Assembly: GCF_017833415.1 (NCBI RefSeq)
Contig: NZ_JAFICC010000012.1
Location: forward strand, 1-64,000
Source: Flavobacterium sp. 1355
GTDB lineage: Bacteria; Bacteroidota; Bacteroidia; Flavobacteriales; Flavobacteriaceae
DNA length: 64,000 nt
Direction: 5' to 3'
The notes under the pieces are model-generated. The model was not told where the DNA came from and did no database searches. It saw nothing but the letters and a program-made list of their open reading frames with translations. Both the position numbers and the translations under genes were made by a program. This document shows positions 6,718-14,387 of this stretch, piece by piece; the stretch's first letter is position 1; each line of letters starts with the position of its first letter.

Positions 6718-7977
6718 TTATGTTTTAAGTTTTTTCTTTTTGGCTGCGGGAAATAAAACATTATTAAGAATTAGTCTGTATCCCGGAGAATTAGGATGCA
6801 AATCCAAAACTGTTGGAGGATCTCCTACCTGATGTTGAAAATCTTCGGGATCATGTCCTCCAAAAAAAGTAAACATACCTTTTCCTTTTTCTCCATGAAT
6901 ATACCTTGATTCACCATTAAGTTCGCACACGCCCATTACTAAAATATTTGATTTTATCAGCGATGAATCAAATGATGTAGTTTGTCCCATAAAGCCTTTT
7001 ACTAATTGAGTATGATTTTGACACAGCATACTGGGAATCGGATCCCATTTTGCAGAAAATTCCATTAGAGAAAAATAATCTTTTTCCATTACTATTCTGC
7101 GTTTGGTGGTCATATCTATATCAGAAAACTCATATACATCCGGTTTTCTTTCTAATGTAAAATTTTTAAACGCAAATGAATTCGCAAAATTCAATTTTGA
7201 CTGGTAATTTGATTCACTAGGGTCTCCATCAAACATAGCCTCACAAATATCCACTCCATCTGCTGCAAGCGCTATGTCAAAACTATCAGTCGCTGAACAC
7301 ATGGCAAACATAAACCCGCCGCCAATAACAAAATCCCTGATTTTTTTTGCAACTGCGCCTTTTTCTTGTGAAACTTTAGAGTAACCTAATTTTGAGGCCA
7401 ATGCTTCTGCATCTTTTTTCTGGTCGATATACCAGGGTGTATTTTTATAAGCAGCATAAAATTTACCATACTGCCCTGTAAAATCTTCATGATGCAAGTG
7501 CAGCCAATCATACAGAAGCAATTGATCGCTGAGAACTTCTTCGTCGTAAATTGGTGTAAAAGGGATTTCAGCATAAGTGAGAACTAATGTTACTGCATCG
7601 TCCCAAGGCTGTTTCCCTTTTGGAGTATAAACAGCAATTTTTGGAGCTTTCTCAAGAATTACCGATTCCATATTTTGTGAAGGACTTGAGATTTCATTTA
7701 AAATTGAAGCTTCTTCACTATCAGAAATTATTTCAAAACTTACACCACGAATTTTACATTCTTTACGAATTTCCTCAGCATCCGGCAATAAAAATGAGCC
7801 TCCACGATAATTTAATAACCAGCTTGCCTTATAATCTTTGCTTAAACACCAATAGGTAATTCCGTATGCTTTAAGATGATTTTGCTGTGTAGTTTCGTCC
7901 ATTGGGATTAAAAGAAACGAAGCTTTGGCTGTGAAAGAAAACAGAAGTATGAAAATATATGCTAGCCCTTTATTCAT
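6718..7977 (-). CDS. Secreted protein commonly labelled asparagine synthetase B
   Basis: A 419-residue protein with an N-terminal signal peptide (ending near TAKAS). It belongs to a Bacteroidota family that databases often call asparagine synthetase B. I see neither the N-terminal catalytic Cys of an Ntn glutaminase nor an SGGxDS pyrophosphatase loop, and true AsnB is cytoplasmic, so the label is doubtful. Visible features are AVYTPKGKQPWDDAV, a KKIRDFVIGGGFMFAMC segment reminiscent of a class I glutamine-amidotransferase-like fold, and FFGGHDPEDFQHQVGD. It is convergent with the nuclease gene with no gap. The reaction is unknown. Confidence 0.6.
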   Translation of the reverse strand: MNKGLAYIFILLFSFTAKASFLLIPMDETTQQNHLKAYGITYWCLSKDYKASWLLNYRGGSFLLPDAEEIRKECKIRGVSFEIISDSEEASILNEISSPSQNMESVILEKAPKIAVYTPKGKQPWDDAVTLVLTYAEIPFTPIYDEEVLSDQLLLYDWLHLHHEDFTGQYGKFYAAYKNTPWYIDQKKDAEALASKLGYSKVSQEKGAVAKKIRDFVIGGGFMFAMCSATDSFDIALAADGVDICEAMFDGDPSESNYQSKLNFANSFAFKNFTLERKPDVYEFSDIDMTTKRRIVMEKDYFSLMEFSAKWDPIPSMLCQNHTQLVKGFMGQTTSFDSSLIKSNILVMGVCELNGESRYIHGEKGKGMFTFFGGHDPEDFQHQVGDPPTVLDLHPNSPGYRLILNNVLFPAAKKKKLKT

Positions 7978-8304: not shown

Positions 8305-8970
8305 TTAAAATGTCAGTACAGCTATATCATTTTGAATCGCATAAACTACTAATCCGGCAATATTTCTGGATTCGGTTTTAAGTAATAAATTATTACGATG
8401 ACCTTCTACTGTCCTAGGACTTAAAAAAAGTTGATCAGCAATTTCTGAAGTTGTTTTTTGCTGACAAATGAGTTGAAGAATTTCTATTTCGCGAGGGGAC
8501 AGAAAACCGGTTTCTAAGTTTCCTTTGTTATTTTTTAATGAAATAATGGTATCCTGAATAGTTTTTAAAACTGTCTGACTGTAATAAAATCCTTTTCGGG
8601 ATACTTCATTTATTGTATGAATTAAATCTTTTGGAGTTGTATTTTTTATTAAATAAGCAACGGCTCCTACCTGAATCATATTTGCTACAAATGATTTTGT
8701 ATCGTAACTTGTCAAGGCAATAATTTTAATGGCAGGATACGATTTTCTTATAATTTTGGTGGCTTCAACACCGTTTAAGATCGGCATCTTCAAATCCATA
8801 ACAATAATATCGGGCTTTATCGGATTATCATTGAGCTTCACAATAAGTTCTTCTCCATTTGATGCCTCAAAAATAATTTCGATATTCTCCTCCCGTTGTA
8901 ATAAAAAAGAGATTCCTTTCCGAAATAAAACTTCGTCATCGACTAAAGCAATTTTTATGGCGCCACTCAT
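8305..8970 (-). CDS. NarL/LuxR-type response regulator
   Basis: A 221-residue two-component regulator. The receiver domain (about 4-120) has the acidic pair D11/D12, phosphoacceptor D59 in VMDLKMP and the conserved K109. A LuxR-type helix-turn-helix occupies about 155-215 (LSPREIEILQLICQQKTTSE, then SPRTVEGHRNNL). It should bind DNA as a dimer once phosphorylated by the kinase encoded just upstream, 116 bp away on the same strand. Target genes are unknown. Confidence 0.93.
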   Translation of the reverse strand: MSGAIKIALVDDEVLFRKGISFLLQREENIEIIFEASNGEELIVKLNDNPIKPDIIVMDLKMPILNGVEATKIIRKSYPAIKIIALTSYDTKSFVANMIQVGAVAYLIKNTTPKDLIHTINEVSRKGFYYSQTVLKTIQDTIISLKNNKGNLETGFLSPREIEILQLICQQKTTSEIADQLFLSPRTVEGHRNNLLLKTESRNIAGLVVYAIQNDIAVLTF

Positions 8971-10030: not shown

Positions 10031-10780
10031 TTAATATGGTGGAGATGGACGAGTTCCATCTAAAACATCATCTAAAACATTTTCACCGTCGTCTTTTGAC
10101 GTGGCTGATGTTTTTTTGATTGAATTATTTTTATCCAAACCAATCAAAATTGTTGTTACTTTTCCTTTAGGATTAAGTCCAAAAAATACGCCGATGTTTG
10201 CTGTATTTGCTTTATTAACCATAGTTTCGATAATAGAAGATTCTAAACTAAAATGACGAAAACGTAATCCATTATAAGAAGTTACTTCATCTAAACCTGT
10301 AACAGAATTCAGTTTTTCCTGCCAACCTAAAATTCCTGCATAAGCATCTTTTGGCAACAATAAATGTTCGGTTACTAAAGGTGTCCTTTTATTAGTCTTG
10401 CTAACTGATACCTCATTTAATTTACTAAGTTTAGCCGCGTAATTTGACTCTTTAAGTATTTTAGAATTAATCTTTCCAAGCTCTTTTCCTGATTTGTCAA
10501 CCCCAACTATACTAACCTGTATAGTGTTATTTTCGTAACCGAGAACAAAACGAACCTCTTTGATATTTGGTGTTTTCACTAATTTGGACATTTCATCATT
10601 TGCAAATAAATAAGCCGAAACTTGTTTTTGCGAATTTGCAAATTTTGAATCTAAATCAGCTGTCAACCAATTTTCTTTTTGGGCCGCAGATACTGCCCCA
10701 CTTTCTTCTTGCGAGTTATCTTTTTGGCATGAAATCATCGAAAACATCGCTGCAATAGCGCATAAAATAGTTTTTTTCAT
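10031..10780 (-). CDS. Lipoprotein with C-terminal DGTRPSPPY tail (paralogue A)
   Basis: A 249-residue predicted lipoprotein: the signal peptide ends at C18 (SMISCQKD). I recognise no named family. The body resembles the protein encoded at 10841-11602 along its whole length, including NWLTADLDSKFANSQKQV and ANIGVFFGLNPKGKVTTI. The last residues, LDGTRPSPPY, nearly match the end of the 117-residue protein at 12294 (YDGVRPSPPY), although the codons differ. It is the last gene of a leftward cluster and precedes a terminator. The acidic tail after Cys is weak, so surface display is uncertain. Function unknown. Confidence 0.8.
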   Translation of the reverse strand: MKKTILCAIAAMFSMISCQKDNSQEESGAVSAAQKENWLTADLDSKFANSQKQVSAYLFANDEMSKLVKTPNIKEVRFVLGYENNTIQVSIVGVDKSGKELGKINSKILKESNYAAKLSKLNEVSVSKTNKRTPLVTEHLLLPKDAYAGILGWQEKLNSVTGLDEVTSYNGLRFRHFSLESSIIETMVNKANTANIGVFFGLNPKGKVTTILIGLDKNNSIKKTSATSKDDGENVLDDVLDGTRPSPPY

Positions 10781-10840
10781 AGTGATTTATTGATTAAAGT
10801 TATATAAATATTTTAAAAGATGTAGACGGACAAAGAAAAT

Positions 10841-11602
10841 CTATTCATCTGTTTCAGGATCACCATTTGGCGGACATGGGCGCGTAGCGTCATAAACATC
10901 TGACGTTGCGGTTTTTGAAGCTAAAGATGTTTTTTTAATTGTATTACTTTTATCCAGGCTAATCAAAATTGTCGTAACCTTACCTACAGGGTTAAGCCCT
11001 AAAAACAAACCAATGTTTGCTGTACCAGACTTATCAACCATTGCTTTTACGATATCCGATTCTAAGCTAAAATAACGAAAACGTGATCCTTCATGAGAAG
11101 TGATTTCATCAAGATCAGAAACTGAACTTAGTTTTTTCTGCCAAGCCTCAATTCCTTTGAAAGCATCTTTTGGTGATAACAAATGCGCATTTAATAATGC
11201 TGTTCTTTTATTGGTTGTACTTACAGATACATCGTTAAGTTCGTCGAGTTTTTTACTGTAATTTGAGTCCTTTAAAATTGTTGAACTAACTGTGCCCAGT
11301 TTTTTTCCGGATTTATCCACACCAACAACGTCTATTTGAATTGTATTATCAGAATAACCAAGAACAAAGCGTACTTCGTTAATGTTTGGTGTTTTTACTA
11401 ATTTTGACATTTCATCATTGTCAAACAAATAAGCGGTAACCTGTTTTTGCGAGTTTGCAAATTTTGAATCTAAATCAGCTGTAAGCCAATTTTCTTTTTG
11501 TATCGCTGATACTGAGACGCTATCTTCCTGCGAGTTATCCTTTTGACATGAAAAGATCAAAAACATCGCCGATATTGTTGCGTATAAAATAGTTTTCTTC
11601 AT
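10841..11602 (-). CDS. Lipoprotein with C-terminal DATRPCPP tail (paralogue B)
   Basis: A 253-residue predicted lipoprotein, lipidated at C19 (IFSCQKD). It is a close paralogue of the protein at 10031-10780, and tandem duplication is the likely origin. Shared segments include NWLTADLDSKFANSQKQV near the N-terminus and TANIGLFLGLNPVGKVTTI near residue 200. The tail reads YDATRPCPP followed by NGDPETDE, so the motif is kept but followed by an acidic extension and has Cys instead of Ser. It sits 60 bp from paralogue A and 38 bp from the 7-TM gene. Function unknown. Confidence 0.8.
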   Translation of the reverse strand: MKKTILYATISAMFLIFSCQKDNSQEDSVSVSAIQKENWLTADLDSKFANSQKQVTAYLFDNDEMSKLVKTPNINEVRFVLGYSDNTIQIDVVGVDKSGKKLGTVSSTILKDSNYSKKLDELNDVSVSTTNKRTALLNAHLLSPKDAFKGIEAWQKKLSSVSDLDEITSHEGSRFRYFSLESDIVKAMVDKSGTANIGLFLGLNPVGKVTTILISLDKSNTIKKTSLASKTATSDVYDATRPCPPNGDPETDE

Positions 11603-11640
11603 AGTTGGTTTGGTTTTATCAATATTTAAAAGTGCTTTTT

Positions 11641-12270
11641 TTATTGCTTCTTATTTTCTAAAAAGATTCTTTTGCATTCATACAAATACAAGGACTGCTG
11701 TAAAATAACTAAAAGTGCATTGAGTTGCCATGAGATATATTTAAAATCATCGCTCAAATTCTTTGTCAAACTACCTACCAAATACAAAACAGCACTAGAT
11801 AACATGTACATAATAATAGCTATAGTTATAAAATAATACATTTTTTCAGTAGTTAGCTGATTATATAAATTCATTAAAGCATAACAAACTAATAAAAGTG
11901 AAGTAAGTGTGATTACAAACAAATTAAATTCAAACAATAAATGATAATCATAGGCACACTGACAAACAATTAAAAACAGCGCTAAATACATACTAAATTG
12001 TATATATTTTATTTGTTTCTTATTTGAAAAAAGCGATTTAAAAAACAGTCCTAACAAAATAAATTGTCCGAGAAAAAAGAAATTTACAAGTAATAAATTA
12101 TGAATACTTAGTCGATATAAAATTTCCATAGAAAATTGCATACAAAAACTAAAGACAATATATGACACAAAAAAAGCATTAGCTTTTTTCTTTTGAAAAA
12201 AGCTAATGCTGTAGAAAATGAGATTTAAGAATAAAATTGCATAAACTAAGTATATTAAAAAATTATCCAT
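11641..12270 (-). CDS. Seven-helix membrane protein of unknown function
   Basis: A 209-residue protein with about seven hydrophobic segments (near 4-24, 31-52, 58-80, 88-108, 114-138, 143-167 and 175-195) joined by short loops, and a short charged C-terminus. The layout resembles the stand-alone 7-TM sensor-like domains that precede histidine kinases in other Bacteroidota proteins, but no output domain is present. I choose ATG at 12270; a TTG at 12297 would overlap the previous gene by 4 bp and add nine residues (MIFKRIRIN). It lies between the tail-motif genes, suggesting a shared membrane role. Confidence 0.7.
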   Translation of the reverse strand: MDNFLIYLVYAILFLNLIFYSISFFQKKKANAFFVSYIVFSFCMQFSMEILYRLSIHNLLLVNFFFLGQFILLGLFFKSLFSNKKQIKYIQFSMYLALFLIVCQCAYDYHLLFEFNLFVITLTSLLLVCYALMNLYNQLTTEKMYYFITIAIIMYMLSSAVLYLVGSLTKNLSDDFKYISWQLNALLVILQQSLYLYECKRIFLENKKQ

Positions 12271-12293
12271 ATTTATACGTATTCTTTTAAAAA

Positions 12294-12647
12294 TCAATAA
12301 GGTGGACTAGGGCGTACTCCATCATAAACTATATCATCAGTCGCAGCCTCAGATCTTAGTAGTGTCGACGGTGCTCCGTAAACATCATTATATGTACCCG
12401 TTTCTTTATCATACCCTGCTCCAACAAAAAAAAGAGTCTTTTCTTTTTTGTCATTAATACCAATATAGGCACGAACGGCTTCGGTATTAAGTTGCAAAAC
12501 TGCTTCTAAACTTTCTCGTGGTATTAAAAAAGATTTTACTTTAGTCTTACTGTCTTCAACAGTATTTTCATCCTGATACCTTTTCTCCCATTCTTTAGCA
12601 GTCGCTAATGAAATTTGGAATGGTCCTGGAAATGTGTCTTCGCTCAT
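12294..12647 (-). CDS. Small protein with C-terminal DGVRPSPPY tail (paralogue C)
   Basis: A 117-residue protein with no signal peptide, so predicted cytoplasmic. Residues about 42-85 (FLIPRESLEAVLQLN, then AYIGINDKKEKTLFFVGAG) align by eye with the C-terminal third of the two lipoproteins downstream (FSLESSIIETMV, then IGVFFGLNPKGKVTTILIG). The extreme end, DIVYDGVRPSPPY, matches paralogue A. It appears to be the first gene of the cluster. I do not know the family; the shared fold and tail suggest the three act in one process. Confidence 0.7.
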   Translation of the reverse strand: MSEDTFPGPFQISLATAKEWEKRYQDENTVEDSKTKVKSFLIPRESLEAVLQLNTEAVRAYIGINDKKEKTLFFVGAGYDKETGTYNDVYGAPSTLLRSEAATDDIVYDGVRPSPPY

Positions 12648-12781
12648 AGTTTAATTTTTTTTTTTGAATTAGTTAATAGTATAAATTTTGTTAATGGTTT
12701 TGCTAAACTACCGAATTAATTTTACATAAAAGATATAATGCATAAAATTACTTATGAAATTTAAGTTATGATTTTAGATAA

Positions 12782-12842: not shown

Positions 12843-14387
12843 TTAAAATGGAACATCACTGTCATCATCGTCATCATTGAGATTACTGCCAAAAGCCTCA
12901 TTTGCTGACGGCAGGTTTTTGGTGATAAACGGATTGTCATCATGATTCATTTTTGATGGTAAGTCATCATAACCTCCGGTAAAATCTTCAAGATTATCAA
13001 ATTTACCTAAATGACCTACGAATTTTAGACGAATATTCTCCAAACTACCATTACGGTGTTTTGCTATAATAAATTCAGCCTGTCCTGCAGTTGGCGATTG
13101 TTCATCATCATCCCACTCTTCAATTTTATAATATTCAGGACGGTAAATAAACGAAACGATATCGGCATCCTGCTCAATAGCTCCAGATTCACGAAGGTCA
13201 GAAAGCAAAGGCCTTTTACTGGATCCACGCGTTTCAACGGCACGGGATAACTGCGAAAGTGCAATTACCGGAACGTTTAACTCTTTTGCTAAAGCTTTTA
13301 AGTTTCGGGAAATGGTAGAAATCTCCTGCTCACGGTTTCCTCCCCCTTTACCGTTACCCCCAGCTGTCATTAACTGCAAGTAGTCAATAATAATCAATTT
13401 AATTCCGTGTTGTGAAGCCAAACGACGGCATTTTGCACGTAAATCAAATATCGAAAGCGAAGGCGTATCATCAATAAACAAAGGAGCTTTTTCTAAATCT
13501 TTAACTTTAGTACTTAGCTGCTCCCATTCATGTTTTTCAAGTTTTCCTGTTCTTAATTTTTCTGATGACAATCCTGTTTCTGATGAAATAAGCCTCGTAA
13601 TTAACTGAACTGACGCCATCTCAAGTGAGAAAACTGCCACTGCATGTCCAAACTGAATAGCAACATTTCGTGCCATAGATAGTACAAAAGCCGTTTTACC
13701 CATACCAGGACGAGCTGCAATAATAATTAAATCCGAAGGCTGCCACCCAGAAGTTACCTGATCCAACTTCTCAAAACCAGTAGCAATTCCGCTTAATCCC
13801 TCTTTACCTGCAATTTCTTCAATACGCTTTTTTGCCTGAAGCACTAAACTCTGTGCAGTTTCAGAACTACGTTTAATATTTCCCTGCGTCACTTCATATA
13901 GTTTTGACTCAGCTTTATCCAGCAAGTCAAACACATCTGTAGTTTCATCATAAGATTCTTCAATTATTTCAGAAGAAATTCGAATCAAACTTCTTTGAAT
14001 AAATTTTTGAAGAATAATACGTGAGTGGAATTCGATATGCGCAGAAGAAGCAATTTTTTGCGTAAGCTGAATCAAATAAAAATCTCCTCCTGCTAATTCA
14101 AGCTTTCCATTTTTCTTTAACTGACTAGAAACTGTCAATAAATCAATTGGCTGTGTCTCAGTAAAAAGCTGCAGAATGGCTTCAAAAATATGCTTGTGTG
14201 CGTCTTTGTAAAAAGCATCTGGCTGTAAAATATCAATTACATCATCTACTCCTTTTTTATCAATCATCATCGCTCCAAGAACGGCCTCTTCCATATCTAT
14301 TACCTGTGGAGGTAATTTACCTTTTTCCAGGTTTATAATAGTGGTTTTATCGACTTTTATAGGGTTTACGTTTTTGAAATTTTCCAT
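12843..14387 (-). CDS. dnaB: Replicative DNA helicase DnaB
   Basis: A 514-residue hexameric helicase that unwinds DNA at the fork and recruits primase. It has the N-terminal DnaB domain (about 25-130), the linker, and the RecA-like C-terminal domain with Walker A ARPGMGKTA, Walker B IKLIIIDYLQLM and the DNA-contact loop region. No intein is inserted. The tail is acidic (DDDDDSDVPF), resembling SSB-type tails. Upstream, TACTTTCG lies only 4 nt from the ATG, so its mRNA could be almost leaderless. Confidence 0.97.
   Translation of the reverse strand: MENFKNVNPIKVDKTTIINLEKGKLPPQVIDMEEAVLGAMMIDKKGVDDVIDILQPDAFYKDAHKHIFEAILQLFTETQPIDLLTVSSQLKKNGKLELAGGDFYLIQLTQKIASSAHIEFHSRIILQKFIQRSLIRISSEIIEESYDETTDVFDLLDKAESKLYEVTQGNIKRSSETAQSLVLQAKKRIEEIAGKEGLSGIATGFEKLDQVTSGWQPSDLIIIAARPGMGKTAFVLSMARNVAIQFGHAVAVFSLEMASVQLITRLISSETGLSSEKLRTGKLEKHEWEQLSTKVKDLEKAPLFIDDTPSLSIFDLRAKCRRLASQHGIKLIIIDYLQLMTAGGNGKGGGNREQEISTISRNLKALAKELNVPVIALSQLSRAVETRGSSKRPLLSDLRESGAIEQDADIVSFIYRPEYYKIEEWDDDEQSPTAGQAEFIIAKHRNGSLENIRLKFVGHLGKFDNLEDFTGGYDDLPSKMNHDDNPFITKNLPSANEAFGSNLNDDDDDSDVPF

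Follow-up and report, generated by a model that had tools for sequence, protein, structure and literature searches.

The window, by which we mean the whole stretch of 64,000 nucleotides (nt) analysed here from contig NZ_JAFICC010000012.1 of Flavobacterium sp. 1355, carries on its minus strand a group of genes whose order recurs in many other Bacteroidota genomes. They encode a protein of 117 amino acids (aa) ending in a proline-rich tail, here labelled SM, a seven-transmembrane (7TM) protein, a histidine kinase with no recognised sensor domain and a response regulator; their coordinates are collected in Table 1. The SM-type protein, the 7TM protein, the sensorless kinase and the regulator form a conserved, operon-like gene set. 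The unit is larger than the cluster singled out in a first-pass annotation, which consisted of two lipoproteins and the signal-less 117-aa protein, with the 7TM protein encoded between them: the minus-strand open reading frames (ORFs) bear out that description, the HisKA_3 kinase and the LuxR-type regulator have to be added to it, and the lipoproteins turn out to be optional. With a probability of about one half, we propose that the set encodes a split sensor, in which the SM-type protein would dock by its tail on the 7TM protein, which in turn would gate the kinase.

The evidence begins with the genus. Queried with the single sequence, 120 of 299 genomes of Flavobacterium contain an SM match (E <= 0.01), and 80 loci, numbered with the prefix L, were fetched from 80 of these 120 genomes, picked by hand across the whole score range and thus not a random sample; L008 and L065 represent the same locus. 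The recurring order is SM, 7TM, zero to five lipoproteins, kinase, regulator. With L099, whose SM is broken, left out, the remaining 79 loci hold 81 SM-type hits, and a script finds the 7TM gene directly next to 78 of them, a kinase downstream of 79 and a regulator downstream of all 81; here a 7TM protein is one of at least 150 aa with at least five transmembrane (TM) segments, and some of the same loci went into the 7TM profile. Four rows account for the exceptions: in L059 a fragment of a lipoprotein was scored as SM, in L067 the 7TM gene is broken, in L103 SM and 7TM are parted by a lipoprotein, and in L086 a run of five lipoproteins puts the kinase beyond the range of the scan. A second SM-7TM pair is found in L112, with a partial SM, and in L161. 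Lipoproteins occur in 14 of the 80 fetched loci, in 23 copies.

The same neighbourhood is found elsewhere in the phylum. Of 395 Bacteroidota genomes searched with a profile built on 22 SM proteins (A4), 49 have a match, and these come from 25 of 170 genera; an earlier profile, heavy in Flavobacterium, matched 36 of the 395. We took 45 further regions, either from other genera or containing second copies in Flavobacterium, and set aside L153, which has no SM hit, and L179, on account of the length of an SM with two copies of the domain. The rest yield, again by script, 46 SM-type hits in 43 loci, with the 7TM gene next to 45, a match to the kinase profile at 42 and a regulator at 40. Leaving out three Flavobacterium loci and one overlapping region, there are 41 hits in 39 loci, with 40, 37 and 35 respectively. 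By eye, a larger kinase of another type follows in L157, L172 and L176; the locus scan finds no kinase in L183, and the 7TM gene of L188 starts about 312 nt further on. The conserved neighbourhood and the co-occurring 7TM gene that the annotation had proposed to look for in related genomes are therefore both there. A match in L009 (Eubacteriales), with 41 residues aligned, was taken as spurious. Two suspected 7TM-kinase fusions, L172 and L174, were rejected since the kinase ORF contains no 7TM, and the lengths of open frames in the SM and 7TM genome searches suggest no fusion of SM with either protein. As for variant SM proteins, the one in L179 is a chain of 250 aa whose first domain copy has no intact tail, and those of L165 (4941-5327), L181 and L184 end in aromatic-rich stretches such as ITWWNPLTWF, with no Cys-Pro tail, and are still followed by 7TM, kinase and regulator.

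The core of the tail, YDxx(x)PxP, is present in 77 of 80 Flavobacterium SM ORFs, a total that includes the partial copy of L112 and the L008/L065 duplicate; one truncated ORF and two near-misses make up the other three, so that homologues do not commonly lack the tail. A YDxxxPxP core is also present in all 23 fetched lipoproteins. The tail is not always terminal, as had been supposed: 25 of the 80 ORFs end in RP[SC]PP[YF], like the window SM, and others run on, for example as PCPPYGDPxSP or PCPxxCDxxSPLN. The remaining types are PCPP without a second Cys (22), CPxxC (16), P[SN]PP (11) and other forms (6). Likewise, of the three tails described as terminal in the window, those of SM and lipoprotein 1 are, and that of lipoprotein 2 is separated from the stop codon by NGDPETDE. 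Among 42 other SM ORFs, two of which (L158 and L195) overlap, 34 have CPxxC, 2 have CP only and 6 have neither by regular expression, counts that are biased by a search profile that contained the tail. These forms suggest an ancestral-looking tail, YDFTxPCPxxCDxxSPL, of which the RPSPPY type of the window looks like a shortened descendant, as judged without a tree. A metal or redox site was considered, CPxxC being common in the other SM ORFs; the Cys is lost in many Flavobacterium proteins, however, and a strict metal site is not needed.

The three tailed proteins of the window are related, as the annotation held: both lipoproteins contain two weak SM-like regions, with domain E-values of 8.8e-6 and 1.2e-5 in lipoprotein 1, and of 3.3e-5 and 4.2e-7 in lipoprotein 2 (25-sequence set, filters off). 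The tail codons do differ among the three genes, and the idea that selection keeps the peptide agrees with the ratio of nonsynonymous to synonymous polymorphism (pN/pS) in 26 sequences with the window-type end: it is 0.21 in the tail, 0.13 in RPxPP, 0.27 in the domain and 0.88 in the linker, values which indicate that the tail codons are under purifying selection and that the linker is near neutrality. Codons that fit such ends are not unusual in the genome, with 3 matches versus 4 for a reversed control, and this simple pattern is uninformative; the significance of the tail thus comes from its conservation across loci.

The association can also be approached from the other side, starting with the 7TM protein. 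With a profile of 38 7TM proteins (A5), 50 of 247 genomes give a match at E <= 1e-5. In 20 extra loci chosen by their 7TM gene, 14 have an upstream same-strand ORF with a tail that is plausible by eye, and 15 have a kinase; they bring in new tail grammars, such as NYGNIGRPP, YDLGGLKP, NHGQICP and FDIGNLWP. L211 repeats the phenomenon seen in the window, AYDLGGLKP being the end of both a lipoprotein and a signal-less protein. Four tail patterns, which recover 9 to 13 of 16 positives and 1 to 15 of 284 controls in training, were then fixed before the sequences of 29 fresh 7TM-chosen loci were seen. These loci gave 32 7TM hits, of which 28 have an upstream ORF and 2 lie behind another 7TM gene; a kinase is present at 25. 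The four patterns match the 28 upstream ORFs far more often than 76 control ORFs: 12 versus 8 for pattern A (p = 5e-4), 12 versus 2 for B (p = 1e-6), 9 versus 0 for C (p = 3e-6), and 13 versus 1 for D (p = 4e-8). Six of the 28 (L222, L223, L238-L240 and L242) are, to judge by tail and genus, orthologous or closely related to training loci; excluding them leaves 6 of 22 for each of A, B and C, and 10 of 22 for D. A looser criterion adopted post hoc, PP or CP within the final 35 residues, gives 24 of 28 versus 5 of 76 controls.

In profile comparisons with SM, a group of 11 accessory proteins including the NYGNIGRPP type aligns over the domain with a probability of 94%, two proteins of the L222/L223 type reach 79%, and the lipoproteins 99%; a mixed group of four aligns over the tail only, at 4%. 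The tail grammar thus goes with the proteins encoded before the 7TM gene, even where the domain has greatly diverged. In L197 and L198, a relative of the 7TM gene, broken in L198, has no kinase nearby and is preceded by a 110-aa gene that we take to be gldC-like.

An alignment of 122 7TM proteins places most positive charges in loops 1-2, 3-4 and 5-6 and at the C-terminus, which by the positive-inside rule predicts an outside N-terminus and an inside C-terminus. Five well-conserved columns lie at predicted periplasmic ends: N58 (92%), N116 (88%), N167 (75%; the window protein has Ser), W181 (85%) and N184 (84%). The alignment has no conserved Cys column, and a His exceeds 60% at a single position, 134 (62%; Asn in the protein of the window). 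The family appears to be weakly related to 7TMR-DISM: at E <= 0.1, 4 of 38 proteins match 7TMR-DISM_7TM (PF07695), the best with E = 2.7e-5, and the window protein scores 13.4 bits (E = 0.08), short of the 29 bits set as curated cut-off. The open frames are of 197 to 304 aa and start at or near the first helix, with no DISMED domain found in front, and the 7TM profile has no match in the PDB at E <= 0.1.

Co-divergence was measured across 70 Flavobacterium loci with a full complement of the five genes, L067, L099, L105 and L112 having been excluded in advance. The regulator and a neighbour gene, at 6718-7977 in the window, served as controls. The partial correlations are 0.55 between SM domain and 7TM, 0.37 between SM domain and kinase, and 0.46 between 7TM and kinase. 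With kinase and tail also controlled, the SM domain-7TM correlation is 0.33, a value reached by none of 2000 permutations; with 7TM and tail also controlled, that of SM domain and kinase is 0.13 (15 of 2000). These values indicate that SM and 7TM co-diverge beyond what they share with regulator, kinase and neighbour gene, under permutation (Mantel-type) tests that are lenient for related sequences.

The kinase and regulator of the window are easily classified. The former scores 38.7 bits for HisKA_3 and 36.7 bits for HATPase_c (cut-offs 24 and 26.4), and the latter 83.4 bits for its receiver and 55.5 bits for GerE (cut-offs 30.2 and 23.5). HisKA_3 kinases and LuxR-type regulators act together as two-component systems. 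No sensor domain is found in the kinase by Pfam or NCBIfam; its match to the NCBIfam LiaS model (E = 4.7e-26, 91.8 bits) does not reach the cut-off of 450. SM itself has only chance-level matches in Pfam, NCBIfam and the PDB sequences, and the SM of the window has none in PADLOC; a role in defence was set aside, the window proteins having no relevant PADLOC match.

Three known systems offer comparisons. In 7TMR-DISM proteins, a 7TM module is tied to kinase-type outputs, and the order of the fused proteins, sensor part, 7TM, kinase, is that of our gene set, where accessory domain, 7TM and kinase are however separate genes. LiaFSR also has a kinase with no recognised sensor domain, a LuxR-type regulator and a membrane accessory protein, but the accessory part of our gene set consists of a 7TM protein and a tailed protein, soluble or lipid-anchored, and no LiaF-like protein was seen. 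The agr system shares the combination of small protein, polytopic protein, kinase and regulator, and differs in the classes of its kinase and regulator, which are not HisKA_3 and LuxR; nor are the Cys and His residues of an AgrB-like protease seen in the 122 aligned 7TM proteins. The layout is a new variant of multi-component two-component signalling. The annotation knew of no described system of this kind, and neither the family searches nor the literature searched, including the portions consulted of PMC7807042, PMC9239133, PMC5080379 and PMC9950754, yielded one.

In the split sensor that we propose, the 7TM protein would control the kinase as its missing sensor, and the SM-type protein would be its partner, docking through a C-terminal tail of YDxxxPxPP type, while the folded SM domain would govern the timing or manner of tail presentation. 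The lipoproteins would serve as forms anchored in the envelope, which would compete with, or feed and amplify, the same receptor. Docking from the periplasmic side is favoured, because the 7TM protein has its best-conserved polar residues mostly at predicted periplasmic ends. The annotation had suggested a recognition or sorting signal: sorting is unlikely, because proteins with and without an export signal carry the same tail type, and recognition by the 7TM protein would fit better.

Several observations weigh against this proposal. The binding of SM to 7TM is inferred from comparison, and once the domain is controlled for, tail and 7TM show weak co-divergence (partial r = 0.08, 59 of 2000 permutations), under the same lenient tests. 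Lipoproteins are missing from 66 of the 80 fetched loci, and where present their tail types often differ in detail from that of SM in the same locus (e.g. L084-L086). Repeated 7TM genes with no extra SM occur in L105, L157 and L170; 5 of the 42 other SM ORFs lack both CP and an export signal; 6 of the 20 extra 7TM-chosen loci have no recognisable tailed neighbour, 2 of the 32 fresh hits have no upstream ORF at all, and the best pattern, D, still misses 15 of 28. Positive charges on the predicted outside, at positions 114 and 177, break the topology pattern, and conserved residues are found at cytoplasmic 7TM ends as well (e.g. positions 134-139 and 199-203). Structural models are too poor to use: that of the 7TM protein has seven helices at low confidence, with a mean predicted local distance difference test score (pLDDT) of 53.5 from 2 alignment rows, and that of SM a mean pLDDT of 41 from 3 rows (the window, L007 and L008).

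The main puzzle, however, is location. A simple hydrophobicity rule finds an export signal in none of the 80 Flavobacterium SM ORFs, and the window SM, in an open frame of 118 aa, has no upstream room for one. This is a misfit with periplasmic docking, for which SM would need another exit route: signal-less members would either act from inside or leave by an uncharacterised route. The annotation placed SM in the cytoplasm, which the missing export signal suggests from sequence alone. If so, the tail might bind a cytoplasmic face of the 7TM protein, for which the conserved residues just mentioned speak, or the kinase, and the lipoproteins, being optional, would differ in role and keep the tail by descent. 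We think this unlikely: the same rule finds no signal in 33 of the 42 other SM ORFs, but the remaining 9 have one, to which L174 can be added by eye, at an internal Met; several 7TM-neighbour proteins are anchored or lipoproteins at the same gene position and with the same tail type as signal-less ones, and the fetched lipoproteins keep the tail core without exception. As to the surface, PMC5080379 gives as lipoprotein export signals C-X-K-(D/E)2-X in Capnocytophaga and SDDFE in F. johnsoniae; the window lipoproteins read C-Q-K-D-N from the lipid Cys, which comes near the former but has one acidic residue behind K versus two in the published signal.

Exported tail carriers, and a fast-evolving linker that parts tail from domain, also recall a peptide precursor: a protease would free the tail, and neighbouring cells would sense it through the 7TM protein, as in agr, of which the layout of small protein, polytopic protein of about 210 aa, kinase and regulator is reminiscent. 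We hold this to be quite improbable, for no protease gene recurs in the set (by eye), the 7TM protein has no conserved Cys/His pair such as AgrB would need, within the genus the tail evolves slowly, in contrast to pheromones specific to a strain, and most SM carriers have no export signal. A Pro-rich, near-terminal peptide could equally be a stability or quality-control signal, for example a protease tag, or part of the domain fold, unrelated to the 7TM protein, as its weak co-divergence with that protein might suggest; this has a slim chance, given how far the upstream proteins of 7TM-chosen loci exceed controls in tail grammar, and given an unconserved linker that speaks against a structural strand. 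Finally, lipoproteins and SM are homologous and the former vary from none to five copies per locus, so that tandem duplication in an ordinary paralogous family, with no common partner, might explain the shared tail. This was already disfavoured, and is very improbable: SM linkers are near-neutral where tails are not, and related tails recur beside 7TM genes in other genera.

If the split sensor is real, an unnamed protein family, with matches in the genomes sampled above, gains a partner, a likely sensor and a short motif that can be tested. It would point to an undescribed kind of bacterial sensing, and allows one to test directly in what way sensorless HisKA_3 kinases receive their signal, and whether protein tails are read by 7TM proteins in bacteria. 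A bolder and rather doubtful extension is that these are phylum-wide receptors, in which the 7TM protein reads the proline-rich C-terminal tail of a protein ligand encoded just upstream and relays to a separate kinase, with a logic like that of G-protein-coupled receptors; under this reading, signal-less ligands that leave by lysis or by an uncharacterised export would make it a system for sensing kin or damage.

Table 1. Features of the gene set in the window, all on the minus strand.
Feature	Position	Strand	Description or basis
Block TTCGGTAGTTTAGC, upstream of SM	12702-12715	(-)	alignment of 38 upstream regions
SM	12294-12647	(-)	117 aa, no signal peptide; one domain, linker and tail
SM tail YDGVRPSPPY, terminal	12297-12326	(-)	ORF translation, tail codon analysis
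7TM protein, about 209 aa from ATG	11641-12270	(-)	ORF also open from TTG 12297
Lipoprotein 2, 253 aa, two SM-like regions, near-terminal tail	10841-11602	(-)	N-terminus ..MFLIFSC
Motif YDATRPCPP in lipoprotein 2, then NGDPETDE	10868-10894	(-)	ORF translation
Lipoprotein 1, 249 aa, two SM-like regions, terminal tail	10031-10780	(-)	lipoprotein-type N-terminus ..SMISC
Lipoprotein 1 tail LDGTRPSPPY, terminal	10034-10063	(-)	ORF translation
Histidine kinase, HisKA_3 and HATPase_c, N-terminal TM segment	9087-9878	(-)	Pfam/NCBIfam, no sensor domain found
Response regulator, LuxR-type (GerE) output domain	8305-8970	(-)	Pfam

The TTCGGTAGTTTAGC block is well conserved among relatives in the 38 aligned regions upstream of SM, and is possibly a promoter or operator of the gene set. 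Further upstream, on the minus strand, lies a gene (12843-14387) that we take from its sequence to be dnaB. According to the alignment, the 7TM protein is likelier to start at ATG 12270 than at TTG 12297. The neighbour gene used as a control encodes a protein of 419 aa with a signal-like N-terminus, 76-94% identical across the fetched Flavobacterium loci that have it, and with no meaningful Pfam match. Five tandem lipoproteins with tails stand in the single gene set of L086, and their tail endings differ. The genome of the window also contains a second module (G000:C25:13386-14006, L196), in which an SM-like protein ending in NYGNIGRPPSLIY is accompanied by a 7TM protein, a HisKA_3 kinase and a LuxR-type regulator.

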